A DNA stretch of 24,823 bases from a virus. The stretch spans positions 1-24,823 of IMG/VR virus record IMGVR_UViG_3300034355_001172; one strand, 5' to 3'. Within the stretch, counting starts at the first letter, position 1. Every line of letters begins with the position of its first letter. Position numbers and translations under genes: made by a program. The notes under the pieces are model-generated. The model did no database searches. It had not been told where the DNA came from and saw only the letters and a list, made by a program, of their open reading frames with translations. Below, piece by piece: positions 2,565 through 22,724 of this stretch.

Positions 2565-3392
2565 ATGGCTAATAAGAACGCGGTTGCAGAGGTCAAGGAC
2601 GGCGGTGTGCCGGCTTATCTCGCGGGCTACAAGGGCCCGGCCACCAACACGATGATGGAGAACGAGGACCGCATCGTCCCTCGCATGAAGCTGTTGCAGG
2701 CGATTTCGCCCGAGCTCAAGAGCTTCAATGAGGCGAAAGAAGGCGTCTTTTGGCACTCCATCCTCAATGAGTCGTTGGGTTCGGAGGTGCGCTTCGCCGT
2801 CATCATGGCGCGCAAATCGTACGTCCTGTTCGCCCCGCGCGGCGACGACCGCATGATCTTGGCCCGCTCTGCCGACGGCAAGACGTGGGACCGCCCGAAT
2901 GAGTCCTTCGAGGTGAAGATCAAAGGCTACGCCAAGCCCATCGAGTGGAACACGAAAGGTAGCGTCGTGGAGTCGGGTCTGGCCAATTTCGGCTCGTCCA
3001 TCCCCGGTGATCCGCAGTCGCCGCCGGCCGCTACGTTGGTCTACGAGTATCTGGTTTACTTGCCGGATTATCCGGACTGCAGCCCGGCCCTGATTTCGCT
3101 GAGCCGCAGCGGCATCAAGCGGGGTAAGGACCTGAACTCCAAAATCTCGCTGCGCGCGGGATCGGTGCCTCAGTTCGCCCAGCTGTACAAGGCGGTGGTG
3201 ACGAGCGAGCAGAGCGCTGAAGGTGGCTACAACGGTTGGTCGTTCAAGTCGGACGGCGTCGCTGACGAGGCTACCTTCAATACGGTTCTGGCGCTGGCGA
3301 AGAGCTTCGAAACGACGAGCTACCGCGCGTCTGACGAAGACATGAGCGACGAGGCGACGGCCGCTCCGGCGGATTCCGGCGGCGCGTACTAA
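2565..3392 (+). CDS. Likely ssDNA-binding/recombination-associated phage protein
   Basis: The product is 275 aa. A globular, beta-rich core (about 30-230) is followed by a flexible acidic end (ASDEDMSDEATAAP) of the sort that recruits partners in ssDNA-binding proteins such as T7 gp2.5 and bacterial SSB. The region LQAISPELKSF with VFWHSILNES resembles phage proteins commonly annotated as ssDNA-binding or recombination-associated, but I cannot confirm homology here. AGAGGAG upstream of ATG 2565 is a good ribosome binding site. The neighbours are a coiled-coil protein before and the DNA polymerase after. In this phage it would act on Z-containing DNA during replication, if the role is right. 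Confidence 0.65.
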   Translation: MANKNAVAEVKDGGVPAYLAGYKGPATNTMMENEDRIVPRMKLLQAISPELKSFNEAKEGVFWHSILNESLGSEVRFAVIMARKSYVLFAPRGDDRMILARSADGKTWDRPNESFEVKIKGYAKPIEWNTKGSVVESGLANFGSSIPGDPQSPPAATLVYEYLVYLPDYPDCSPALISLSRSGIKRGKDLNSKISLRAGSVPQFAQLYKAVVTSEQSAEGGYNGWSFKSDGVADEATFNTVLALAKSFETTSYRASDEDMSDEATAAPADSGGAY

Positions 3393-3481: not shown

Positions 3482-3697
3482 ATGGCCAAGCGCCTCACCT
3501 ATATTCAGAACTATGATGGCAACCGTGGATGGGTCCTAGAGCCGTTCACCGACGAAGACCACAAGTCCGGCGACTACATTTTCCTTTGCCAGCACTCGGA
3601 TGGCAACGCCACCGAGCTTGACATCGTCAAGATTCCTCGTCACCTGTGGGATAAGCTGGTGAATGAAGTGAACGAGAAGATGAAGGACTTCAAATGA
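3482..3697 (+). CDS. Hypothetical small protein before dpoZ (71 aa)
   Basis: This 71-aa protein begins MAKRLTYIQNYDGN. A longer in-frame reading from GTG 3401 would run through the two hairpins, so ATG 3482 is preferred, with GGAG at 3469-3472 as ribosome binding site. The sequence alternates beta-like segments with an acidic patch (FTDEDHKSGDY) and ends in a Lys/Glu-rich helix. Its stop overlaps the polymerase start (ATGA, 3694-3697), so it is probably translated with the polymerase. No family is recognised, so a link to polymerase function is only positional. Confidence 0.65.
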   Translation: MAKRLTYIQNYDGNRGWVLEPFTDEDHKSGDYIFLCQHSDGNATELDIVKIPRHLWDKLVNEVNEKMKDFK

Positions 3698-5568
3698 CTA
3701 CATCACTCGGTGACCGGGTGGATGGGGCTCTGCGCGCTGTCGCAAAGTCTCCCGTCATCGCCTACGACGTAGAGACCAGTGGAGTGGATTGGAGGCGGAA
3801 TGCGGTTGTTGGTTATGTCATTACTGTTGATGAACAGTCTAATTGGTACATCCCCGTGCGCCATGGTGGCGGAGGAAATCTACTCGATGGAGCGCCTCTC
3901 ACCGACGCAGTCGTTCCTCGACCCATGCCCGTCCACCCCTTCGAAGAGGCCCTCGCCCGAGCCTTTTCCGAACGTAACCGACGAGGATACGTTACGGTGG
4001 GCCATAACATTAAGTTCGACGTTCACCTATCCGCTAACCACGGGGTCATGCTGGGACGGAACCTTAACTGTACCCAAATAACCGAGGCCCTGATCGACGA
4101 GTACGCCGGCTCCTACAGCCTCGACGCCTGCTGCAAGCGCCATGGCGTGACGGAGAAGAAGGGCGACGCGCTCTACGCCCACATGGCTCAATTGTTCGGG
4201 GGCGAGCCCGAGCGCAAGATCATGCAGCACTTTTGGCGACTGGCCGGCGACGACGCTGTGGCGGTGGACTACGCCATGGGCGACGGCACGTCTACGCTCG
4301 ACCTGTGGCGCAGTCAGGCCGAAGACGTCACGGCGGAGGACAAGGACGGTAAGACGCTGGAGAACATCTTTCGCCTTGAGAACGAGCTGATATGGACCGT
4401 TTTTCGCCTTGAGCGCATCGGCATGAAGGTGGACGAAGGGCGACTGGATTGGGCGTTCCGGGAGGTCAAGCGCTTGGTGAGCGAGGCCCGCGCCGACGCC
4501 GGCTTCGATGAGTCATTCAACGTCCGGTCCACCTCCGCCGTGAAGGACTGGCTGATCTCGAAAGGCGTCGTGGACTTTCCTCGCACTGAGCCCACCGCTC
4601 GCTTTCCGGACGGCCAGATTTCGATACGAGCGAAATGGCTGGAGGGCCATGCAGTGGGCCAACCAGTCGTGGCGATTCGCAACGCGCTCGATCTGGAGTC
4701 CAAGTTCTTATCACCGCTCAAGGAGCGCCACCTGTTCGAGGGGCGCGTTCACGCGTCGCTGAACCAACTGAGGCAGGACGACTATGGCACCGTCACGGGC
4801 CGTTTTTCGTGTAACGAACCGAACCTTCAGCAAATCTCTAAGCGTAATAAGAAGCTCGGCAAGATCCTTCGTTCGGTGTTCGTGCCGGACGAAGACAAGA
4901 TCCTGTACGAAGCGGATTACAGCCAAGCGGAGCCGCGCACTTTCGCTCATTACACACAGAGTCCCAAGATCATGGAGGGTTACCTCCGAACTCCGTTCGT
5001 GGATATGCACTCGGTGGTGGCGCAGGAATTGGGCGTAGATCGTGGCACCGTTGGCAAGCGCCTGAACATGGGCATGCTTACGGGGCTGGGCCCGACTACT
5101 CTGGCCGAACATATGGAGTGGCCGGTGGCGAGGGCGCGCGAGGTCTGGGACTGGTACATGACTAAGTTCTTTCCAGAGCTCAAGCAGTTCCATGGCAACG
5201 CCAGTAAGATATATAAGAGCCGGGGCTTCGTGCGCACGATGCTCGGCCGGCGTTGCAATCTGAAGGACCCCAAGTTCGCCTACCAAGCGGTGAGCCGGAT
5301 CATTCAGGGCTCGGGTGCCGACATCATCAAGTACAAGCTGCTAGAGGCCGACAAAATGTGCGAGGCCGACGGCGACGAGGTGAACGTCATCATGACCATT
5401 CACGACTCTTTCGTCTTTCAGGCCCCGCCCGAGAAGCAGGAGTTTGTGGACCAACTGATCGCTCGCATGAGCTCGGTTCAAGAGGACCCGTTCAACATGA
5501 GGGTGCCCTTCCTCATGGACGTTGGCAAGGGCGAGAATTGGGCTATCGCATCGTATGGAGACAAGTAA
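3694..5568 (+). CDS. dpoZ: DNA polymerase, family A, DpoZ type, with 3'-5' exonuclease
   Basis: The 624-aa enzyme copies the phage genome. The N-terminal DnaQ-like proofreading domain is intact: Exo I D25 and E27 (AYDVETSG), Exo II N105 and D109 (GHNIKFDV), Exo III Y193 and D197 (YAMGD). The polymerase domain has motif A DYSQAEPR (D408, E413), motif B K455 and G464 (GKRLNMGMLTG), and motif C IHDSF (H570, D571). There is no 5'-nuclease domain. The O-helix positions that are Phe and Tyr in Pol I (762, 766) are Met459 and Thr463 here. In Z-genome phages with PurZ, a polymerase of this family (DpoZ) accepts Z opposite T. The dpoZ name here follows from co-occurrence with purZ, datZ and mazZ. Start ATG 3694 overlaps the previous stop. 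Confidence 0.93.
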   Translation: MTTSLGDRVDGALRAVAKSPVIAYDVETSGVDWRRNAVVGYVITVDEQSNWYIPVRHGGGGNLLDGAPLTDAVVPRPMPVHPFEEALARAFSERNRRGYVTVGHNIKFDVHLSANHGVMLGRNLNCTQITEALIDEYAGSYSLDACCKRHGVTEKKGDALYAHMAQLFGGEPERKIMQHFWRLAGDDAVAVDYAMGDGTSTLDLWRSQAEDVTAEDKDGKTLENIFRLENELIWTVFRLERIGMKVDEGRLDWAFREVKRLVSEARADAGFDESFNVRSTSAVKDWLISKGVVDFPRTEPTARFPDGQISIRAKWLEGHAVGQPVVAIRNALDLESKFLSPLKERHLFEGRVHASLNQLRQDDYGTVTGRFSCNEPNLQQISKRNKKLGKILRSVFVPDEDKILYEADYSQAEPRTFAHYTQSPKIMEGYLRTPFVDMHSVVAQELGVDRGTVGKRLNMGMLTGLGPTTLAEHMEWPVARAREVWDWYMTKFFPELKQFHGNASKIYKSRGFVRTMLGRRCNLKDPKFAYQAVSRIIQGSGADIIKYKLLEADKMCEADGDEVNVIMTIHDSFVFQAPPEKQEFVDQLIARMSSVQEDPFNMRVPFLMDVGKGENWAIASYGDK

Positions 5569-6750: not shown

Positions 6751-6778
6751 TTTACAACGCGTTACAATGTGCTATAAT
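6751..6778 (+). promoter_or_regulatory. Strong sigma70-type promoter P2 driving purZ
   Basis: TTTACA (6751-6756), a 16-base spacer ending TGC (extended -10), then consensus TATAAT (6773-6778). It begins six bases after the previous stop. Transcription starting near 6785 would give a very short leader with AGGAGG (6787-6792) five bases before ATG 6798. This is the best promoter match in the window and implies high purZ expression. Confidence 0.75.
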
Positions 6779-6797: not shown

Positions 6798-7862
6798 ATG
6801 CCATTTAAATTCAGCGCCAGCAGCATCGAAGACGCCTTATATGAAGACGGGTGGTTCGCCAAGGGGGCCCATTTCATCGTGGACGGCCAATACGGCTCGA
6901 CCGGCAAAGGGGCTCTGGCGGCGGTCATCGCCCGCGCCGGCCGACGCGACATCGAAATATACGCCACCAATGCCGGCCCGAATTCGGGTCACACCGCCGT
7001 ATTAGGTGCGGCCAAGATCGTCACCACGCAGTTGCCGGTGGGCGCGGCCGTGGCGAAGCTCCTGCCGGGCCCGCAGTTCGACGTCTACCTTACGGCCGGC
7101 GCGATCATATACCCCAAGATGCTGCAGAAAGAGGTCGAGGAATTTGGCGTCGTGCCGACCATCCACCCGTGCGCGGCCATCATCGAGGCGCACCACGTCG
7201 AGCAGGAGCAGAGCAACGGCTCTTCGAAAGTCGCCGGCACGGCCAAAGGGGTGGGCGCGGCGCTGGCCGACAAGGTCAACAGAGAGGGCAACCTTTGGGG
7301 CCGACAAGACGTCTGGTACGGTTATAGCGGCGTATTGGATCTGGCTAACCGGTGCGTCCTCCACGAGTCAGCGCAGGGGTTTTCACTGGGCGTCAATGAG
7401 GCCCTTTTCGCTCCTCACACAACGAGCCGCGAGTGCACGGTGCAGCAGGCCCTCTCCGACGCCCGCATCCCGCTTAGTCAGGTCCACAAGGTGGCGATGA
7501 CGCTGCGTACGGCACCGATAAGGGTCGGAAATACGCAGGTGGGCTACAGTGGCGATTTCTACGACGACCAGAAAGAGACGTCGTGGGAGGAGCTTGGCCT
7601 TCAGGAGGAGTACACCACCGTCACTAAGCGCGTGCGTCGCGTTTTCACGTGGTCGTGGTCGCAGTTCGTCGACGCGCTGCGCGTCAATGAGCCGGACCTG
7701 CTCAACATTAACTTCATGGACTACCTGAAGAAAGAGGAGCAGGAGCCTTTCGTCCGCGCCGTCATCGCCAAGTATCAATCGATCCTGCCGCACAAAGGCA
7801 TGCCGACGGTGCTTTGCGGATTTGGTCCTGACATCGAGCACATGGGGGTGTGGGTTGACTGA
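6798..7862 (+). CDS. purZ: PurZ, aminoadenylosuccinate synthetase
   Basis: The 354-aa enzyme belongs to the PurA/PurZ family. In PurA the P-loop is GDEGKGK; here residues 33-38 are GSTGKG, so the catalytic Asp is Ser34 and the following Glu is Thr35. This is the accepted signature of PurZ, which uses dGMP rather than IMP and, with aspartate and NTP, makes N6-succino-2-amino-dAMP. The catalytic His is kept (NSGHT, H65). Other family blocks are GTAKGVGAALADK (about 147-159), ESAQGFSL in place of the PurA EGAQG loop, HTTSREC and KRVRRVFTWS. At 354 aa it is shorter than bacterial PurA (about 430), as in phage forms. AGGAGG and promoter P2 precede it. Host PurB and kinases would complete dZTP. Confidence 0.95.
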   Translation: MPFKFSASSIEDALYEDGWFAKGAHFIVDGQYGSTGKGALAAVIARAGRRDIEIYATNAGPNSGHTAVLGAAKIVTTQLPVGAAVAKLLPGPQFDVYLTAGAIIYPKMLQKEVEEFGVVPTIHPCAAIIEAHHVEQEQSNGSSKVAGTAKGVGAALADKVNREGNLWGRQDVWYGYSGVLDLANRCVLHESAQGFSLGVNEALFAPHTTSRECTVQQALSDARIPLSQVHKVAMTLRTAPIRVGNTQVGYSGDFYDDQKETSWEELGLQEEYTTVTKRVRRVFTWSWSQFVDALRVNEPDLLNINFMDYLKKEEQEPFVRAVIAKYQSILPHKGMPTVLCGFGPDIEHMGVWVD

Positions 7863-7875
7863 CACAGACGAATTG

Positions 7876-8064
7876 ATGGTAAAGGGCGTCCCTATATGGG
7901 TGCTGGATCCTGAGGCGAACATCACCGTTCGCGAAATGGCGGAGATCCTACGGGGTCTTCGCATTATGGCTAAAGGTGAAAAGACGCTGGAGCGGTTTCA
8001 CCGCTCTACGCATCGCCATTTTAAGAGGATGAACAATGGAGACCAAGCTAATGATGTACAGTGA
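7876..8064 (+). CDS. Small unknown protein between purZ and mazZ (62 aa)
   Basis: From ATG 7876 this is a 62-aa basic protein. TTG 7855, whose frame overlaps the purZ stop, would add seven residues, and TTG 7822 is less likely. No start has a strong ribosome binding site, so translation may depend on coupling with purZ. The middle (ITVREMAEILRGLRIMAKG) looks helical, followed by a His/Arg-rich segment (RFHRSTHRHFKRM). It overlaps mazZ by 29 bases. I recognise no family. Its place inside the Z cassette makes it a candidate accessory gene, but no function is visible. Confidence 0.5.
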   Translation: MVKGVPIWVLDPEANITVREMAEILRGLRIMAKGEKTLERFHRSTHRHFKRMNNGDQANDVQ

Positions 8065-8365
8065 AAAAGACCAAAAAGCCGCTCAAGCTATAGTAGACGC
8101 CATCGATGCAGGAAATGTGGCCGCCATGGTGCGGCCCGTTCTGGCTGATTTTGCCGTTTTGATGGAGGCCAAGCTTCAGAAGAACGACCACAAAACCAGT
8201 TGGACTAACCTGCCGGTCGAGGCTCTTTTTCGAATGCTGACGCTGGAGATCGAGGAGTTCAAGGTGGCACACGAATTCCTCGGACCCGACGAGGCGATGA
8301 AAGAACTGGTGGACGTCGCCAACTATTGTATGATCCTTCACGACCGACTGAAGAAGCTGAAATGA
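8036..8365 (+). CDS. mazZ: MazZ, MazG-like (d)GTP pyrophosphohydrolase
   Basis: The 109-aa all-helical protein has the MazG-family metal motif: ExxE at E71-E74 (LEIEEF) and ExxD at E90-D93 (ELVDVANY). In Z-genome phages a MazG-type enzyme, MazZ, hydrolyses dGTP (and GTP) to dGMP and pyrophosphate, supplying the PurZ substrate. That assignment here comes from family plus position between purZ and datZ; the sequence itself proves only the MazG fold. AGAGG about eight bases before ATG 8036 supports the start. The stop overlaps the next ATG (ATGA, 8362-8365). A general housekeeping MazG role is the alternative. Confidence 0.87.
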   Translation: METKLMMYSEKDQKAAQAIVDAIDAGNVAAMVRPVLADFAVLMEAKLQKNDHKTSWTNLPVEALFRMLTLEIEEFKVAHEFLGPDEAMKELVDVANYCMILHDRLKKLK

Positions 8366-8625
8366 GCGACAACGACATCGGCATGGCCGTACTCCAAGCG
8401 TGCATCGAATTCCAAATCACCATCAGTAGGTTGACCGAGGGAATGAGCGACGAGGATAAGGCCATGGTGAAGGTCAAGGCCGCCTTGCACATCGGTTGTT
8501 TCCCATTAACGTCGGTGGAGCAAAGCGAATGGCCACGCATGAAGAAGTTCATGCTTGAGAACCTCGCTGAGCGCATCGATCACTTCATGGGGTTCGCTGG
8601 CACTGACAACATGACGGGGCACTGA
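8362..8625 (+). CDS. Small unknown protein between mazZ and datZ (87 aa)
   Basis: ATG 8362 overlaps the mazZ stop; a longer reading from 8326 lies inside mazZ and is rejected. The 87-aa acidic, helical product includes LQACIEFQITISRL (about 10-23), MSDEDKAMVKVKAALHIG, and a C-terminal MENLAERIDHF-like segment with several Met. The stop is one base before the datZ start (TGATATG). I do not recognise it. Its conserved-looking position in the Z operon suggests it could work with MazZ or DatZ, but there are no catalytic residues I can name. Confidence 0.6.
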   Translation: MSDNDIGMAVLQACIEFQITISRLTEGMSDEDKAMVKVKAALHIGCFPLTSVEQSEWPRMKKFMLENLAERIDHFMGFAGTDNMTGH

Positions 8626-8626
8626 T

Positions 8627-9190
8627 ATGGATGACACTTGGTTGCTGGGGCGCTTCGAGCGCAATCTGGCTGACATTCGCCGCTGGTCAATCGTGCGCAC
8701 GACGCGCGAGCAGTCGGTGGTGGAGCACTCTTTTTACGTGGCCCTGATGGTGCCGCGCCTGCTGCGCCAGTATGGCTTCGAAGACCCGCAAATGTTGCTC
8801 GACGCCACGCAATACGCGCTGCGCCATGATATGAGCGAGGTCCTGACGGGCGACATCGCCACGCCTATCAAAAAGCGCTTGCCTGAGGGGGCGTTCACCA
8901 TGATGGAGATGGAATTCGGCTTTCCACCGGAGGAGATCGACCCAATCGTCCAGCAGGCGGTGAAGGTGATCGACCTTTTCGAAGCGGCCGCCTTTTTGGC
9001 CGAGGAGATCGCAATTGGCAACTCCCGCGTCGTAGACGTGCAACGCGTCATCAAGTACAAGCTCGAAAAGGCGTGCGTGGCGTTCGAAAAAGCGGTTGGC
9101 AAAAGCGACGGTCTGTATCGCGTGATGAGCACCGTATTATACCACTTGCAGTACTCCATGGTCGATCCGCTGGAGCCAGACTTGTCCTGA
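8627..9190 (+). CDS. datZ: DatZ, HD-domain dATP triphosphohydrolase
   Basis: This 187-aa HD phosphohydrolase is close in layout to E. coli YfbR. Metal ligands are H34 (VVEHSFYVA), H67-D68 (ALRHDMSEVLTGD) and D116 (VKVIDLFEAA); E71 and D76 are also in place. The length and spacing match DatZ of Z-genome phages, which strips dATP to deoxyadenosine so that A is kept out of phage DNA. The segment RRWSIVR places W20 and I22 near the start; as I recall, in cyanophage S-2L DatZ equivalent residues shape the base pocket that excludes 2-amino purines. A general 5'-nucleotidase is the alternative, but beside purZ and mazZ DatZ is much more likely. Confidence 0.93.
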   Translation: MDDTWLLGRFERNLADIRRWSIVRTTREQSVVEHSFYVALMVPRLLRQYGFEDPQMLLDATQYALRHDMSEVLTGDIATPIKKRLPEGAFTMMEMEFGFPPEEIDPIVQQAVKVIDLFEAAAFLAEEIAIGNSRVVDVQRVIKYKLEKACVAFEKAVGKSDGLYRVMSTVLYHLQYSMVDPLEPDLS

Positions 9191-12589: not shown

Positions 12590-13186
12590 GTGTCTCAATT
12601 AAGCGCTCAAAGCATCAAGAAGCTGTGCCAACCGACCAAATGGTGCGGATTGATGAAGCAACAACCGATGATCGTCCCATTCGTGGGTGAGAAAACGGTG
12701 GTCAATGGCAAAAGTTATGGCCTGTCTGCCGCCAGTTATGACGTTCGCATTGCGCACGACGTCATACTTGGGCCCGCCCCGTCGTACGTTTTGCGTAATA
12801 TGTTACAATACAGCAAAGGCATGCCAGTGGCTGGCACCATAGAAGGGTGGCGCGACAATATGAAGGGCTACCCTCCAAATCACGCTCTGGCGCACACGAT
12901 TGAGGACTTTTACATTCCGCACAACGTCGTTGGATATGTGTGCGACAAGTCCACCTATGCCCGCATTTTCGTTTCAGCGTTCAACACTCTTTTCGACCCC
13001 GGATTCTGCGGTAACGCCACGCTGGAGCTCGTGAACCTAAGCGACAAGATCGTCAGCATCAAAGCCGGCGACCCTATTTGCCAATTCACGTTCCACTGGC
13101 TCGACCGCAAAACAGATAGGCCCTACAATGGCAAGTACCAGAACCAAACCAAAGCCGCACACCCCGCAAGGTTTGAAGGCGTCTGA
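12590..13186 (+). CDS. dcd: dCTP deaminase-like (DCD/dUTPase family) enzyme
   Basis: GTG 12590 is the start, set by a perfect AGGAGG six bases upstream. The 198-aa protein follows the DCD/DUT trimer fold: SAASYDVR (47-53), IPHNVVGYVCDKSTYAR (109-125), FDPGFCGNATLELVNL (135-150) and AGDPICQFTF (159-168). S121, R125 and E146 match the Ser, Arg and Glu used by E. coli dCTP deaminase, so deamination of dCTP to dUTP is likely. A dUTPase activity cannot be excluded. It would feed dTTP synthesis. DCD-like enzymes are also found in phages with altered bases, so a modified substrate is possible. The 3' end overlaps the GcrA-like gene by 59 bases. Confidence 0.85.
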   Translation: MSQLSAQSIKKLCQPTKWCGLMKQQPMIVPFVGEKTVVNGKSYGLSAASYDVRIAHDVILGPAPSYVLRNMLQYSKGMPVAGTIEGWRDNMKGYPPNHALAHTIEDFYIPHNVVGYVCDKSTYARIFVSAFNTLFDPGFCGNATLELVNLSDKIVSIKAGDPICQFTFHWLDRKTDRPYNGKYQNQTKAAHPARFEGV

Positions 13187-13610
13187 CTTCAAAGATAAGA
13201 TCCGCGACGACATTAATGCCGGCCGCACGTATGGCGAAATAGCCGACGAAATCGGCATAAGTCGCAGTTCTGTGGCCGGAATGGTGGGCCGACTCAAAGT
13301 ATTGGGCGAAATCACCTACACAAACCCGGCAAAGAGCATGGGCAAACGCTTGGCCCCTGCAAAACGCGTGACGGCGCTTAGACGTCCGCCAAAAGTGGTT
13401 GTGGACGTCAGTTCGATCACGCCACTGGAGGTGGACCTTTTGGATCTTGGACATCGTCAGTGTAGGTATCCTGTTCGCAGTCACGGATCAAGGCATTGGT
13501 TCTGTGGTTTGCCGACTGACGAGATGGCTTCGTATTGCTCAGCACACGACCACATCACGCGCGTTCCGTCTAAGATAAACATTAAAAAGACCGGCCATTA
13601 TAGGGGATGA
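13128..13610 (+). CDS. GcrA-like transcriptional regulator
   Basis: The 160-aa protein has an N-terminal helix-turn-helix (RTYGEIADEIGISRSSV, 33-49, then GMVGRL), a variable basic linker, and the GcrA C-terminal block LLDLGHRQCRYPV with FCG and YCSAH. C112, C126, C137 and H140 are in the conserved spacing. GcrA of Alphaproteobacteria binds sigma70-RNA polymerase and acts at promoters carrying N6-methyladenine in GANTC. A phage version would be expected to steer host or phage transcription. The start is uncertain: ATG 13128 has no strong ribosome binding site and overlaps dcd; TTG 13171 is the alternative. The stop overlaps the lipoprotein start. Confidence 0.85.
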   Translation: MASTRTKPKPHTPQGLKASDFKDKIRDDINAGRTYGEIADEIGISRSSVAGMVGRLKVLGEITYTNPAKSMGKRLAPAKRVTALRRPPKVVVDVSSITPLEVDLLDLGHRQCRYPVRSHGSRHWFCGLPTDEMASYCSAHDHITRVPSKINIKKTGHYRG

Positions 13611-15380: not shown

Positions 15381-18179
15381 TCAAATGTGCTGATTGGCCA
15401 CGCGGAGCGCGCTCACCACCGTTTCATCGTCTTCGTTAAGGATCGGCTTGGTGTCCGACTGAATCTTTTTCTTCGAACGTTCGGCCGCTTTGATCATCAT
15501 GTCTGCCGTCATTTCGCGAGGACGCGGTGCGCCGCCGGTAGCGAAGCCTTGACGGTCTTCAGCCGAATTGATTAGGCCATAAGCCGGAACGCGGCGCAAG
15601 CTCTCTTTGATGCCCGCTTCGACCTCTTTTGGCTTGATCGGCATTTTCTTGAGCAAACGATGGGCGACGTCGGGATTGAGCAGCGCCTCGGTGACGAGGT
15701 CATTGACGTTTTGCAGACCTTCGTGACGAAGACCTTCAATGATGTGGTGAGCCACCGCGCTAGTCGTAGACAGGGCTCCGAGCACCGGGTGAGAGCTCAT
15801 CATCGCTAGACCGCCGCCGCCGACGATCACGTCGAAAAGCGACTTGAGGTCCACCTTTTTATCTTTGATGGACGGCAAAAGGTCCTGAGCCGTGGTTGAG
15901 CGGCCCGGCAAAGCGGTGGAGCGAACGGAGCGATTGGTGCGATGAAGGTCGGCCGCGATGCGCTGCATCGACGCCACCTCCTCAGGAGTGAACACCTCTT
16001 TTAGCGCCGACGCGTTGTTCTTCAAGAACGTTTGGAACGAGTCGGATTTGATCAAATTCACGCCCGTCGTGCCGGCCTCGGCGTTCGAAATGAACTTGTC
16101 GCGGATGAACTCGGCCACCGCCCGGCGCAAGCCGTTGCGAGCATCAGGGTTCGTGTTCGTCTTTTGCACCAAATCCCGGATCTGGCCAACGGGGTTGCGC
16201 TGACCAAAAATGGAGCCTACCGTCTTTTTGACGTCATCGGCGCTGGTGAGACCCATGATGCTGCGGACGGCCTTCGACTGCTGCTCCTCAAGGACTTTTT
16301 TCGTCGCTTCAGTCGCCGCCGCGACGCGCTCCGAGGCGTTCAGCGCCGTATCGAATTTGCCAGACAATTCCGGAAAAGCGCGCAGCGCATCTTCGTGACG
16401 CTTGCGCCAATTGGCGAACTTGGCCGGATCTAGGCCACCCTTGGCGTCGGTCGCCTCTCTGCGCAACGACGCTACGATGTAGTCGTGCATCGTGTCGATG
16501 GCTTCCTTGTCGGTGCCCGCCGCATTGCGAAAAGCAGTCGCAGCCTCAAAGCCTTTTGGCCCCGCTGGAAAGAATTTAGCGACCGCTGCGGCGTCTGGAG
16601 CCCTATATTGGCCCGCAAACCCCTCGGTGCGCAGGGCTTCTCCCACCGGGCCCCGTCCAAACTTTTGTTTATATTCGCCGTGCTTAGCCTTGGCCGCCGC
16701 CAGCGCCTCGTTCTCCACCGACGTATTAAGAACGTCCATGATTTTGCTTTTGATGGCCGTCAGGCGGCCCCAAGTCGGCGTTTCGCCGCGTTGACGCTTT
16801 TCGGCCGCCATTTCGGCGGTGACGTAAGTGTCAAATTCGCGAAGATCCTTGAACGACGCGTCGGGACCAAGAGTGGCCGCCTTTTCGAAAATGTCTCGTT
16901 CAGCGGAAGATAACGGCGCAGCAAGGGGGCCCTGCTTTGATACGGCTCGCGCCGACGCCGCGATGGGCGACGCGTTCACCGTCACGGTGCCAGTCGGATC
17001 GACCTCTTTGTACAAGTCTTCGCGCTCTTCGCGCATCGTCTTTTTGGCGTCTTCGAGCTTGGTGCGAAGAATCCGGCCGTAGTCCTCGGGCGTGCCTGCG
17101 CCGCCCAGCTTGCGAACCTCTTCTTCCGCCGCGCGCTCGGCCTCGGCCACATAACGGGCCGCGTTGGCGTCCAATTCCTCGTGACGCTCGCGAAGAAAGG
17201 TCGGCAGGTCGGTGATTTCGCCAGACGGGGCGACCTTGCTGAGCTCTTCGGCTCTTGCTGCCGCTTGTTCGCCCTTGCGCTCCAAAAAGCGCTCGGGGGA
17301 CAACGTCTCGGCGCGGCGCTGAGCCTGTCCGAGGCCGACGTCGCCGGTGAGCTCGAAAGTGGTGGGCTGCGAGCCGGGCACGATTTCGCGCGGCTTCGTC
17401 TCGATGGCCTCCATCGTAGCCAAGGGGCTCTCAACGCCCTCGCCCAAACGACGGGCGGCGGCGCGCTCTACGCCAGCAGCGGTGACGGGCTCCAAATATT
17501 CCATGCCGCGCTGCGCCAAAGTGGCGAGCGAACGGCCGCCAGCAAGACCAAGCGCGCCAAGACCACCGCCAACCATGCCGCCGGCAAGACCAGCAGTCGG
17601 CTTCCAGTGCTCGGGCACCATCTCCATGGCGATTTCCGACCCAGCGCCGCCAGCAGCGCCGAGACCCGTCAATTCGGCCATCGGAGCGACGCCTGCCGCG
17701 CGAGGGGCGAAAAGGGTCTCAGCTGCCTCGGCAAAGCGAGGGTAAAGGCCAGCTACTTTTGGTAACATGGTCTCAGCTGCAACGGCTGGAATCGCCGCGC
17801 CGGCCGCACCTTTGCCCATATGATAAAGGATGCGCTCGCCCTCAGTAGTGGGTTCAATCGGACGCGCGCCAATCGTCTCCATATACTTGCGGCCAAGAGC
17901 CCTGAGAGACTCCGAACCGCCAACAGGCATTTTTCCAATAGGGAGACCGGCCTTCCTAAGCGCCCAAGCCGTCACGTCAACCGGCATGCCGGCCAATTCG
18001 GCCGCTCCGACATAAGCGCCAGTGACCGGAGAGCCAAGCGTAGTCAGCAACGTGGGCTCGCGGGCCTCCGTGCCCTTTTCGAAAGCCTCTGCAAATGAGG
18101 GACCGGCACTAGTAGCAGCCTTTGCTTTAGGCTCATCCGTAGCCGTCTCAAAGGCCTCGAAAAAAGATTGGTCAACCAT
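15381..18179 (-). CDS. Large internal virion/ejection-like protein (932 aa)
   Basis: I do not recognise a named family. The N-terminus carries two copies of an F-x-E-A-F-E motif (SFFEAFETATDE and SFAEAFEKGTE, about residues 5-35). Gly/Ala-rich hydrophobic stretches at about 130-150 and 195-235 could span a membrane. Long charged helical regions follow (about 290-480 and 560-720). A further hydrophobic segment (DVIVGGGGLAMMSS, about 795-810) precedes the basic C-terminus. This mix of amphipathic helices and hydrophobic patches is typical of ejected internal proteins of short-tailed phages. The position after the muramidase-containing protein and before the fibres agrees. The start shares one base with the previous stop, with AGGA eight bases upstream. 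Confidence 0.7.
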   Translation of the reverse strand: MVDQSFFEAFETATDEPKAKAATSAGPSFAEAFEKGTEAREPTLLTTLGSPVTGAYVGAAELAGMPVDVTAWALRKAGLPIGKMPVGGSESLRALGRKYMETIGARPIEPTTEGERILYHMGKGAAGAAIPAVAAETMLPKVAGLYPRFAEAAETLFAPRAAGVAPMAELTGLGAAGGAGSEIAMEMVPEHWKPTAGLAGGMVGGGLGALGLAGGRSLATLAQRGMEYLEPVTAAGVERAAARRLGEGVESPLATMEAIETKPREIVPGSQPTTFELTGDVGLGQAQRRAETLSPERFLERKGEQAAARAEELSKVAPSGEITDLPTFLRERHEELDANAARYVAEAERAAEEEVRKLGGAGTPEDYGRILRTKLEDAKKTMREEREDLYKEVDPTGTVTVNASPIAASARAVSKQGPLAAPLSSAERDIFEKAATLGPDASFKDLREFDTYVTAEMAAEKRQRGETPTWGRLTAIKSKIMDVLNTSVENEALAAAKAKHGEYKQKFGRGPVGEALRTEGFAGQYRAPDAAAVAKFFPAGPKGFEAATAFRNAAGTDKEAIDTMHDYIVASLRREATDAKGGLDPAKFANWRKRHEDALRAFPELSGKFDTALNASERVAAATEATKKVLEEQQSKAVRSIMGLTSADDVKKTVGSIFGQRNPVGQIRDLVQKTNTNPDARNGLRRAVAEFIRDKFISNAEAGTTGVNLIKSDSFQTFLKNNASALKEVFTPEEVASMQRIAADLHRTNRSVRSTALPGRSTTAQDLLPSIKDKKVDLKSLFDVIVGGGGLAMMSSHPVLGALSTTSAVAHHIIEGLRHEGLQNVNDLVTEALLNPDVAHRLLKKMPIKPKEVEAGIKESLRRVPAYGLINSAEDRQGFATGGAPRPREMTADMMIKAAERSKKKIQSDTKPILNEDDETVVSALRVANQHI

Positions 18180-21100
18180 TATGGCATCCTGCGATGGGCG
18201 GAATAAGCCTCAGAGCGGCCGATGGGCTTCATGATGGGCTCATTGCCTTCGCCCCAACCACCGAACATGAACATGTCGCCGGCTTTGAGACCGCGCTGCG
18301 ACATGTGAGACGCCTGCGCCGCCGAAAGGTGAGACGGCACGACGTAAATCGCTCCCTCCGCCCAATCTTTGGCCGGCGGCAACGGCATGCCCTTGAAATT
18401 GCCCAACTGGCGCGACGCCGACTTGACGAAAGCGTCAAGCGGGTTGGCCTCGGACCAGCTCTGCCAAAACGACGTGGGCGACACCCACCCTTCCTTCTGA
18501 GCCTGCGCCCAATCCCGCGAAAACGCCAACTGTCGGTCTAGCGTGCCGACGGCCTCCGACACCATTTCGAAATTGGTGCGCGGCAGACGCTCCGGGGAAG
18601 GTACGCCCTGATCCGACAAGCGAGTGAATTCCTGCTGAGCAAAGCGAGGAGTCGCTGCCTTAAGCGTGTCAAGAACCGCATTAAGCGCATTTTTCTTCAC
18701 GAGCTCCAGAGCGGCTGGGTCACCTTGAGTGACCTTTTCGGCCAAATCCTGATACCCCATCGTTGAGGCCAAGGCGCTGAACGCCAAGCGCTGATCAGCG
18801 GTCGAACCGGACTCCGCGACTTTGAGCGCCTGAGCGATGTTCTTGTATCGCTGCAACGCCGTCTCGGTGGCCGGCATGCGCTCCATGAAATCGCCAAAGA
18901 ACTTCTTGTCGTTTTCGACGATGGCCGCGTTCTGAGGGCTAAGTTCCGAAATCTCGGCACCCGGCGGCAACGACGGGTCGATCATCATGCCGCCGCCACG
19001 AGGAGCAGCCGGAATCGCCGTGCTGATTTTGCCAGACTTGGGCTCCATTTCGACGCGAGCGGGACGACCCTCCGGAGGAGCCTGAGGCGTCGTAACCTCG
19101 GTCGGCGCAGCCACGCCACCTTCTGGTGGGATGAACTTGGTGCCGGTCGGGCTGACGCGCGGGGCGTACTTGCGGCCGACTTTGGCCTTAGCCTCTTCGA
19201 TGGCCGTCTCGGTCGGCACTTTGACGCCGGCCGCCGCCTCTTCTTCCATACGCTTGACGTCGGCCGCCGCTTCGCCAAAACCGGGGATCAAAGCGATTTC
19301 GCCACGATTGGTGAGGACTCGACCCTCTTTACGGATGCTAGACGCCGCCGTGCGGTATTGCTGCGCCGACGACAAAAGCGACTTTACGTACTCGGGATCT
19401 CCCGCCTGCCCCGCTGCAGCGGCGGCGTTTTCATAACGTTGCGCCGTGGCGTCGAGAATGTGCGGGTTGGACTGCGGGTCAACGTTAGCCCAAAAAGCGT
19501 TGTTCGGCGTCGACAACGGATCCGTGGCGACGACCGGAGCTTCGCCAACCGGAGCTGCCTCGGACGTTCTGGCGGCAGGCGGCCGCACGTCGATCGGAGC
19601 GCCGCCCGCAGGGGCACCGCCAGCCGGAGCCGTCGGCGCAGACGTGTAAGGAACCGCACCCGCGCCGCCAGACAGGGCCTTGGAAATGGCCGCCGCCGCG
19701 TCGAGCTTGCGCTTCATATCTTTTTCTTTTAAGGCAAGCTCTCGTTCGGCAACGTCCGCGCCGCGAGTACGGATGCCAAGCTCGCCTTTGCGAAGACCTA
19801 GCTCTTCGCCCATTTTTTCGCGTTCGAACTGCTGCTGCGCCATTTCGGCATACGCTTTCGCGCCGCCGCCAATGCCTTGCAAGATCGACGGGCCGAGGAA
19901 ACGGCTGCTAGATGACGCCATCGTGCCCAAACCGACGAGGGCCGGGATGATGAACTGCTCTGGATTTTGCGTGAACTTGTCGGACAGGCGCTCACCAAAA
20001 CCGCGCTCGTCGACGGTTGGCGTGGACGCCGACCATTTACGCGCGCCGGCCGGGAGGTTAGATAACACTTCGTCCACGTTACCAGATCCGAGACCGGCGC
20101 TGGAGCGTAGTTCTTCGTTGCGATTGGCCCAAGACTTGGCGTACTTACCGAAACGCTCCGGATTGGAGGCGACAAGATTGTTAAGAAACTTTTCGCGCGC
20201 CGCCATGTAAGCGTCCGGGTCGGTGCCAGCCACCTCAAGGAGCTGTTTAGCGCGGCGAGGCCCGGCCATCACGGCAGTGTCGTAAACCATGTCGCGAACA
20301 TTGGCCGGGAGCTGATCGGCTCCTACGCCCTTCCAGTATTCGTTCAGATAAATGTCGCGAGTCTGAGGCTCAGTAAGCTTGGTCACGTCGATGCCGGGAT
20401 GCGCCGCCTGATTAATGCCGCGCATAGACGGGCCTCGGCCGGCGTCATTGGGGTTAAGTCCACCTTCGAAGCGAAGAGTGCGCTTGTAGGCTTCCTCAAA
20501 ACCGCCACCGGGCGTCTGTTCAACATCCTCAGTCGTAGTCTCATCGACGTCTTCAGCGCCGGGGCGCACGCCCATGCCGCCAGCAGCACCGGGGCGCACG
20601 CCGGTCTTAACACGCGGGTCGGACAGCGACATTATGAACGGAGCCGCCGCCGAGCCAATGTCGAAAAGGGTCTTCGCAGCACCGGCAAGGCCGGCCGCCG
20701 TCTTGACGCCACTGCCGATTTTGCCGAGCGTGCTTTCGTCCTCTTCGTCTTCGTCGCGATTATACGAAAGAGAAGGGCCCTTGAGCATATCTAACGGGCG
20801 AACGCCAGAATACGGCACATACCCGCCGTCGGCCTCTTTTGGGACTGACTTTTTAGGAGCGCCCGTGATCGACTTGTAATCGCCATACAGCTCTTTGCCC
20901 GTTTGGTATAAACCAAGAGCGTTCGACAGCCCCGATTTCAACAGGTCGAACTTGGACGTCTGCTTTTCGGGAGCCGTGTATGACAGCGAGGGAGACGAAA
21001 GGGGCGACATCGGAGAAACGCCGCCCATCGGGACGTATCCCACCGCCGCTTCCCCATACGGAGAAGAGCCGCCTTCGGCGTAACCACCGCGCCAATAATC

Positions 21101-22234
21101 TTTGCCCGGCTCCATGTCAACGACAGCACCACCCATGCGCGACATAACATCGGCGTCCTCATCAGACGCGCGCTTGTAGTCGAGCGTAAGCAAACCGTCG
21201 GGGCGCTGGCCCACTGCATCCGGCGTATCCTCCAGACGCTCATCAGCCATCATGCCGAATTCAACCGGCCCTAATTCGCCCGTCTCGGGGTTGATTTTGC
21301 GATAACGGTAAATCGTCTTGCCAGTGGGCGTCGTGGCGATGGGCTCGGGAGCTTCGCTTCCTTCGACGCCCTCTTTGACACGATGATCTGACAGCGGGTT
21401 GCCCCAATACGAAAGAGGCGTGAGGCTCTGCTGAACGCCGCTCGTCGTGGAGCCAAAGCCCGGCCCAAGACCTTGCGCCGCCTGAGTGAGGAACTGCGAA
21501 GTGAGGAACGGGTACGCCTGCTCCTGCATGAACTGGCGGTACATCGCGTCGCGCATCGCCTGTTCGGTCTGCTGCTGAGCTTGGCCGGCGACGAGGCCCG
21601 TTTGAACGCCTTGCGCTGCTGCGGCTTGCGCCCCGGTGCCGAGTTGGCCAAAAGTCTGACCGGCCTGCAACTGACGAGCAAGGTCACCCTGCGCCGCCCC
21701 GAGCGCTTGACCATAACCGGTTTGATACAAAGGCGAAAGAGTCTGACCCAGAGCTAAATTCTGTTGTCCTCGCAAAATGGCGCGCTGCTGTTGGCCACGC
21801 TGTTGGCCAAAAGCGCCCGCTCTAATTTGCTCCGCCGCCTGTTGCTGACTTTGCATCGCCTGCTGTTGCTCAAGGCCGGCTCGAACCGGATCAACAACCT
21901 GCCTCATGTATGGCGACATGTACTGGCCGACAACATCAGCCGTGGACGTCGTGCCGGCTGCACCAGTGAGACCGGCTGCTGCACCATAATAGGGCTGATA
22001 CGCGCCCATCGTTGCGCCAGCCTGCCCAATGGCTTGCTGCTGAGTGGGGCTAAGACCCGCCACAAAAGCGTTGGGATCGGTGCTATAACGCTGAAACGGA
22101 CGTGCCGCCGCCGCGCTGGCTTGTTGCCACGCCTGATTATACATGGCCTGCGCCTGCGGCGACGCGGTCGTCGTCTGCGTAGTATACTGCGAAGAAGGAG
22201 CCGAGGGGCCGGACGACGAACCAAAAGAGCACAT
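18179..22234 (-). CDS. Very large virion protein with embedded GH108-type muramidase
   Basis: From ATG 22234 the protein is 1351 aa. An in-frame ATG at 22300 lies inside the HNH gene and is rejected; GGAG lies about nine bases before 22234. The layout is as follows. Residues 1-270 are Gln/Ala/Gly-rich. An S74-like segment at about 280-355 (LSDHRVKEGV, then EFGMMADE) lacks a terminal position and probably does not self-cleave. Linker repeats contain GGYVP and PSLSY, and a second LSDPRVKTGV follows. A GH108 N-acetylmuramidase-like domain at about 579-700 carries the catalytic Glu590 in FEGGLNPNDAG. Long helical and Pro-rich regions run to the end. It probably cuts peptidoglycan during DNA entry. 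Confidence 0.8.
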   Translation of the reverse strand: MCSFGSSSGPSAPSSQYTTQTTTASPQAQAMYNQAWQQASAAAARPFQRYSTDPNAFVAGLSPTQQQAIGQAGATMGAYQPYYGAAAGLTGAAGTTSTADVVGQYMSPYMRQVVDPVRAGLEQQQAMQSQQQAAEQIRAGAFGQQRGQQQRAILRGQQNLALGQTLSPLYQTGYGQALGAAQGDLARQLQAGQTFGQLGTGAQAAAAQGVQTGLVAGQAQQQTEQAMRDAMYRQFMQEQAYPFLTSQFLTQAAQGLGPGFGSTTSGVQQSLTPLSYWGNPLSDHRVKEGVEGSEAPEPIATTPTGKTIYRYRKINPETGELGPVEFGMMADERLEDTPDAVGQRPDGLLTLDYKRASDEDADVMSRMGGAVVDMEPGKDYWRGGYAEGGSSPYGEAAVGYVPMGGVSPMSPLSSPSLSYTAPEKQTSKFDLLKSGLSNALGLYQTGKELYGDYKSITGAPKKSVPKEADGGYVPYSGVRPLDMLKGPSLSYNRDEDEEDESTLGKIGSGVKTAAGLAGAAKTLFDIGSAAAPFIMSLSDPRVKTGVRPGAAGGMGVRPGAEDVDETTTEDVEQTPGGGFEEAYKRTLRFEGGLNPNDAGRGPSMRGINQAAHPGIDVTKLTEPQTRDIYLNEYWKGVGADQLPANVRDMVYDTAVMAGPRRAKQLLEVAGTDPDAYMAAREKFLNNLVASNPERFGKYAKSWANRNEELRSSAGLGSGNVDEVLSNLPAGARKWSASTPTVDERGFGERLSDKFTQNPEQFIIPALVGLGTMASSSSRFLGPSILQGIGGGAKAYAEMAQQQFEREKMGEELGLRKGELGIRTRGADVAERELALKEKDMKRKLDAAAAISKALSGGAGAVPYTSAPTAPAGGAPAGGAPIDVRPPAARTSEAAPVGEAPVVATDPLSTPNNAFWANVDPQSNPHILDATAQRYENAAAAAGQAGDPEYVKSLLSSAQQYRTAASSIRKEGRVLTNRGEIALIPGFGEAAADVKRMEEEAAAGVKVPTETAIEEAKAKVGRKYAPRVSPTGTKFIPPEGGVAAPTEVTTPQAPPEGRPARVEMEPKSGKISTAIPAAPRGGGMMIDPSLPPGAEISELSPQNAAIVENDKKFFGDFMERMPATETALQRYKNIAQALKVAESGSTADQRLAFSALASTMGYQDLAEKVTQGDPAALELVKKNALNAVLDTLKAATPRFAQQEFTRLSDQGVPSPERLPRTNFEMVSEAVGTLDRQLAFSRDWAQAQKEGWVSPTSFWQSWSEANPLDAFVKSASRQLGNFKGMPLPPAKDWAEGAIYVVPSHLSAAQASHMSQRGLKAGDMFMFGGWGEGNEPIMKPIGRSEAYSAHRRMP
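20110..20500 (-). other. GH108-type lysozyme domain within the 1351-aa protein
   Basis: This part of the large virion gene encodes about 130 residues starting FEEAYKRTLRFEGGL. The block with the predicted catalytic Glu in EGG, then MRGINQAAHPG, YLNEYWKGVGADQLP and VYDTAVMAGPRRAKQLL follows the GH108 (muramidase, ZliS-like) order of helix, catalytic EGG, substrate loop and a C-terminal helix pair. Free endolysins of this family are about 160-200 aa. Here the domain is buried in a virion protein. Confidence 0.8.
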
Positions 22235-22235
22235 A

Positions 22236-22724
22236 TCAACAGCTCCAAGCCATGCGCAAATCTTTTTCAGGCAGGCGATTGTGTTTACGTATATTATCAC
22301 ATGCAGGAATTACCCGCAAATTCCAAGGCACGTGTAAACCGCTAAAATCCCGGCCTTGTAACGGGTGAATGTGGTCAACATGGTAGTCAGTTCCAGTAAT
22401 GTCGCTTAAACAGGCTGCCACTTTGTAATACCAGTTTATGATTTCTTCGTGGTTTTCATTAAGCCACAACGGAGTAGCATTTAACTTGGTAGCCCTCCGC
22501 TTGGCGTTTTTGTGTGCTATCCGACCTTTGTTGCGAGACTCCCACATTGGCCTATACGTGACTATGTAACTTTTGAAGTAAGAGTCATCGGATTTTCGCC
22601 TTTCTAATTGCCGACGCGAATTACACGCCTTGCAATAAGGCATTTTACCATCTTTTGCCGAGGACTTTTTGTGAAAGTCCGTTAAAGGTTTTTCAACGTT
22701 GCACTTAGTACATGTCTTAGTCAA
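22236..22724 (-). CDS. HNH homing-type endonuclease with zinc ribbon
   Basis: The 162-aa protein has an N-terminal CxxC...CxxC zinc ribbon (CTKCNVEK, CKACNSRR) and a basic middle. The HNH core DYHVDHIHPLQG ends at NLRVIPACDNIRKHNR. It resembles the other HNH enzyme (10638-11147) in its first 35 residues (T/SKTCxxCxxEK). Its sequence is more A/T-rich than the flanking virion genes, which suggests insertion as a mobile gene between the acetyltransferase and the large virion gene. The start overlaps the previous stop (ATGA at 22721-22724), and the stop is one base from the next ATG (TGATATG), so insertion preserved translational coupling. Confidence 0.9.
   Translation of the reverse strand: MTKTCTKCNVEKPLTDFHKKSSAKDGKMPYCKACNSRRQLERRKSDDSYFKSYIVTYRPMWESRNKGRIAHKNAKRRATKLNATPLWLNENHEEIINWYYKVAACLSDITGTDYHVDHIHPLQGRDFSGLHVPWNLRVIPACDNIRKHNRLPEKDLRMAWSC

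Follow-up and report, generated by a model that had tools for sequence, protein, structure and literature searches.

PurZ is the phage enzyme that starts synthesis of the alternative DNA letter Z (2-aminoadenine). The question raised by this locus is whether its PurA-family gene encodes such an enzyme or one that still acts on IMP. The window, meaning the whole stretch of DNA analysed, is one 24,823-bp IMG/VR virus record; it is classed as linear and is therefore probably a fragment. Profile, PHROG, PDB and structural-model matches, with diagnostic residues and gene neighbourhood, indicate that positions 6798–7862 (plus strand, as for all sites within the gene) very probably encode PurZ, a predicted (2-amino)deoxyadenylosuccinate synthetase of 354 aa, in a phage that probably swaps adenine for Z in its DNA.

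The purZ gene and its diagnostic residues

The ORF is intact and its product is a PurA-family protein, matching Pfam PF00709 (3.6e-19) and phrog_1211. The NCBI PurZ model NF038379 gave an E value of 1.8e-63; PurA models reached 1.1e-32 at best. Its bit score of 214.5 lies under the NCBI PurZ cut-off of 300, which is a naming rule rather than a biochemical criterion, and PurZ was still the top model. Scores under the cut-offs, both here and for the neighbouring polymerase (310, where the NCBI DpoZ model requires 500), mark a divergent protein. The closest cultured relative was the PurZ of Ochrobactrum phage vB_OspP_OH (phiOH_p32), at ∼44–45% identity. Megablast of the whole window against phage records returned no match, and a single-protein scan of viral contigs returned no relative; finding relatives required an alignment-based scan. 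By its sequence, the gene is a new and divergent member of PurZ.

The top PDB sequence matches were the PurZ enzymes of vibriophage phiVC8 (6fm1, 1.3e-39) and cyanophage S-2L (7odx). A predicted model built from 68 related sequences (pLDDT 92.4, pTM 0.92) superposed best on phiVC8 PurZ (Z 41.3, rmsd 1.9–2.0), followed by S-2L PurZ (Z 39.5), Pyrococcus PurA (38.4) and PurZ0 (37.4). The Pyrococcus value is so close to those of PurZ that the two families are not split by fold alone, and it is residues and neighbourhood that separate them.

The earlier note read a P-loop-like motif, GSTGKG, at residues 33–38 (6894–6911), exactly as found in the translation, and proposed that an Asp-to-Ser change within it splits PurZ from PurA. 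The proposal holds. When 99 PurZ/PurZ0 sequences were aligned with E. coli PurA, Ser34 (codon 6897–6899) fell on the column of Asp13 in the E. coli motif GDEGKG, and Ser occupied that column in all 99, many of them from loci collected by a pattern requiring GSTGKG, which favours Ser and Thr. Ser was also present in 12 loci caught only via another pattern, around N[AS]GHT, and in phage records found by whole-protein tblastn. The possibility that some other Asp takes the catalytic position found no support: the model is nearest phiVC8 PurZ, and sequence alignment puts Ser34 there. Published surveys agree, reporting Ser at this site in 100% of 147 phage PurZ (PMC12884076) and at the PurA Asp site of PurZ "without exception" (PMC8515928). 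As judged from these alignments, the change is real and diagnostic, and it is already published. Taken alone, the Ser switch shows the known rule holding in one more, divergent PurZ.

In PurA, this Asp is the residue that deprotonates IMP at N1. Substitution by Ser would take away the carboxylate at IMP N1 and leave a neutral polar residue by the 2-amino group of guanine. The suggestion that Ser suits a 2-amino purine stands in part: a neutral polar group does adjoin the 2-amino group, since Tyr21–Ser23 lie there in the crystal structure of S-2L PurZ with dGMP (PMC8342488), but the effect appears less direct than had been supposed, the Ser hydroxyl being 3.7 Å from the 2-amino nitrogen, a distance that the same paper considers too long for hydrogen bonding.

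Twelve active-site residues are kept as in all compared PurZ (Ser34, Asn62, His65, Thr148, Arg162, Gln193, Thr209, Arg242, Thr273, Thr274, Thr276 and Arg280). The loop over the aspartate substrate, Thr273-Thr274-Val275-Thr276 (7614–7625), supplies a second diagnostic pair; Thr273-Thr274 is invariant in PurZ and is Gly298-Ala299 in E. coli PurA. The E. coli K-12 enzyme shares the fold and the equivalents of Asn38, His41, Thr129, Arg143, Gln224, Thr239 and Arg305, and differs in these two diagnostic places and in length (431 vs 354 residues). The phiVC8 enzyme (6fm1, 6fko, 6tnh) has Ser14 at the Asp13 site, the same fold (Z 41) and the invariant active-site residues, at about 34–37% identity. 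S-2L PurZ shares Ser23, the Thr273 loop and the dGMP base pocket; Ala146, Gly147, His207 and Thr208 of the window PurZ are unlike the S-2L dGMP-pocket residues, and these positions vary widely among PurZ. Phage OH PurZ has GSTGKG, N[AS]GHT with Ser63, and Ala146-Gly147, all as in the window.

One part of the earlier reading did not survive. Thr35 (codon 6900–6902) had been taken as the possible mark of a sub-branch, and we dropped the idea that it sets apart a special branch containing the window PurZ, since Thr is the norm: GSTGKG is present in 84 of the 99 sequences and GSTGKA in one more. The other 14 have Glu, Cys or Ser. Among them, Glu belongs to ten metagenomic PurZ and to Huckleberry, an Arthrobacter phage whose PurZ0 reads GSEAKG, thus to PurZ0 and one other PurZ branch; the last three have Cys or Ser. 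The site changed about five times over the tree.

The Z-cluster and a family-A polymerase

A Z-cluster has been defined by mazZ lying between purZ and datZ (PMC8342488), and this arrangement is present in the window, with the MazZ call resting on the phage MazZ profile. The mazZ-like gene (8036–8365, plus strand) encodes a 109-aa NTP pyrophosphohydrolase of MazZ-2 type with E71, E74, E90 and D93 conserved, for which no Pfam family passed. Following it, datZ (8627–9190, plus strand) encodes a 187-aa HD-domain dATP triphosphohydrolase (phrog_7076, E 1.5e-25; YfbR-like PF12917; H34/H67/D68 conserved), and a SNF2-type helicase comes after it. The order polymerase-purZ-mazZ-datZ recurred in 39 PurZ loci, and with the helicase added it is also the order in phage OH, which has in addition a PrimPol that was not seen in the window fragment. 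S-2L differs in having MazZ-1 rather than MazZ-2, and no family-A polymerase. Small ORFs at ∼7822–8064 and 8362–8625 had no relatives among the compared loci.

Upstream of purZ is a putative sigma-70-like promoter (6751–6778, plus strand; TTTACA-16-TATAAT, 11/12 matches, its second hexamer preceded by TG), and AGGAGG stands 5 bases before the ATG. This promoter would make purZ the first gene of its transcript. Promoter-like matches numbered 13 against 7.8 expected in shuffles; the class is not strongly enriched, so the strong match before purZ is no more than suggestive. An upstream 126-aa ORF (DUF6378) seemed PurZ-linked in a single-sequence search and was dropped when its profile found many loci without PurZ.

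By analogy with studied PurZ, the window enzyme would consume a nucleoside triphosphate to join aspartate to the 6 position of the dGMP base; the product, dSMP, would then be converted to dZTP by enzymes of the host. The dGMP would come from dGTP by the action of the MazZ-like enzyme, and dATP would be cleared by DatZ. Copying with Z would fall to the family-A polymerase nearby. We infer these activities, the Z content of the virion DNA and any selection of Z by the polymerase from the genes and their relatives.

The polymerase (3694–5568, plus strand, 624 aa) has a 3'-5' exonuclease domain. Its predicted model (pLDDT 92.3) matched phiVC8 DpoZ best in Foldseek, then Klenow. It shares with phiVC8 DpoZ (7pbk) the exonuclease and family-A polymerase domains and the linkage to purZ, but insertions 1–3 of phiVC8 DpoZ are absent from it. 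At the helix-O position of Klenow Tyr766, where phiVC8 DpoZ has Phe459 and both described DpoZ groups have Phe (PMC8599892), the window enzyme has Thr463 (codon 5080–5082, plus strand), phage OH has Ser, and metagenomic relatives have mostly Thr.

Occupancy of this position followed PurZ. Tyr was present in 67 of 95 polymerase loci, none with PurZ in the locus, an absence that is soft, since some loci are short fragments. PurZ was present in all of the remaining 28 loci (14 Thr, 12 Phe, 1 Ser, 1 Asn). The set was mostly collected via the polymerase itself. For the two nearest Tyr enzymes, no PurZ was found in records of 64 and 66 kb. The association of Tyr loss with purZ comes from two or three independent changes or pairs, a number at which a sign test cannot reach significance.

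A careful tree was built with the helix-O columns left out, and in it the Thr lineage grouped with the two nearest Tyr enzymes as one clade (100/100). Joining the Thr and Phe (phiVC8-type DpoZ) groups as one clade was rejected (AU p 0.0002, and 0.00045 with a larger, quickly built tree). Joining the Wayne-like DpoZ gave an AU p of 0.039, a weak rejection in which that group is represented by one very long branch. A monophyletic Thr clade was not rejected (AU p 0.21), while the careful tree puts those two Tyr-bearing enzymes, L101 and L108, inside it; their Tyr may be either ancestral or a reversal. On these trees the window polymerase is PurZ-linked, and its lineage stands apart from phiVC8-type DpoZ. 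Two DpoZ groups have been described (PMC12884076, PMC8599892), and this third Z-linked lineage is apparently undescribed in the openly readable literature, though it may be noted elsewhere. It is widespread in metagenomes, with one cultured member found.

We give an even chance to the reading that Z-genome phages took up a family-A polymerase at least three times, the window lineage having adapted through change of the Tyr766 position to Thr, Ser or Asn and the two described lineages using Phe. It is possible, though less likely than not, that PurZ is active here while the Thr463 polymerase is unselective for Z; as in S-2L, the dNTP pool and DatZ would then be all that sets the Z content. This would fit the want of both phiVC8-type insertions and Phe at the Tyr766 position, and S-2L copes with an unselective PrimPol (PMC8599892); against it, no PurZ-linked polymerase seen retains the Tyr, and none without a nearby PurZ has lost it. 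If repeated uptake and adaptation is true, loss of the helix-O Tyr would mark, by convergence, polymerases that copy Z:T pairs. It may also be a path by which polymerases commonly come to tolerate or select Z, a question that PMC8599892 leaves undecided for DpoZ. The third lineage could be of use for making Z-DNA in the laboratory.

Phosphate donor and PurA- or PurZ0-like alternatives

In E. coli PurA, Asp333 contacts the guanine of GTP. The corresponding donor-base pocket residue of the window PurZ is also acidic, Asp308 (7719–7721), as located by alignment with pocket residues taken from PMC8342488; the equivalents are Gln308 in S-2L, Asn297 in phiVC8, Asn308 in phage OH and Glu303 in Huckleberry. 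Across the 99 PurZ/PurZ0 sequences, Asn (58) and Asp (38) predominate at this site, next to two Glu and one Gln, and the tree shows about ten changes. The phiVC8 and S-2L enzymes take ATP or dATP as phosphate donor, and they have Asn or Gln here; the PurA-like Asp308 therefore predicts that the window PurZ may use a guanine nucleotide, GTP or dGTP. The repeated changes between Asn and Asp among relatives suggest donor switching, with residue 308 as a possible toggle between guanine and adenine nucleotides. According to the dutZ/dmtZ section of PMC12884076, ATP is preferred by PurZ0 and GTP by PurZ ("respectively"); this sentence is probably inverted, since it disagrees with what the paper says in its introduction and with the studies of S-2L and phiVC8.

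Asp308 is one of three features that the window enzyme has in common with PurA, the others being the PF00709 match and the structural nearness of Pyrococcus PurA. They could be taken to mean a PurA-like enzyme still acting on IMP or ribonucleotides in phage purine salvage, with Ser34 neutral or tuning. We consider this very unlikely, given that the PurZ profile is far stronger than the PurA profiles, that Asp13, Gly298 and Ala299 of PurA are swapped for the PurZ-invariant Ser and Thr-Thr, and that Z-cluster genes adjoin purZ. That the enzyme is instead a PurZ0 of the Wayne/Huckleberry kind, as its acidic donor-base residue might hint (PurZ0 and PurA share this trait), is scarcely credible: the motif is GSTGKG and not GSEAKG, identity to Huckleberry is 36% against 44% for phage OH, the tree groups the enzyme with other PurZ, and the cluster has DatZ and MazZ, with none of the PurZ0 partner dutZ identified within the 24.8-kb fragment. 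We accordingly retain the assignment as PurZ.

Host and other genes of the window

A GcrA-like cell-cycle regulator gene was found at 13128–13610. GcrA is normally alphaproteobacterial and in those hosts reads methylated GANTC, which makes the gene an odd one for a phage in which adenine may be replaced. Over the whole window GANTC occurred 51 times, a twofold shortage relative to the 102.5 expected, and no shuffle was as low; the site is thus avoided despite the likelihood of Z-DNA. From the regulator, the GANTC shortage and the Ochrobactrum phage relative, we infer an alphaproteobacterial host.

Several other genes were noted. Positions 12590–13186 encode a dCTP deaminase-like protein, here in a PurZ phage and not found among the related loci compared. 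A 135-aa protein (1086–1493) has the C-terminal DNA-binding domain of DnaA without the ATPase domain. On the minus strand, 18179–22300 encodes a 1373-aa protein that begins like a DNA-ejection protein and has a central glycosyl hydrolase 108 (lysozyme) domain. The genes at 2006–2560 and 2565–3392 are homologues of cyanophage Pam3 gp33/gp34, which have no function assigned; the second member of the pair (2565–3392) was present in 66 of the PurZ loci compared.
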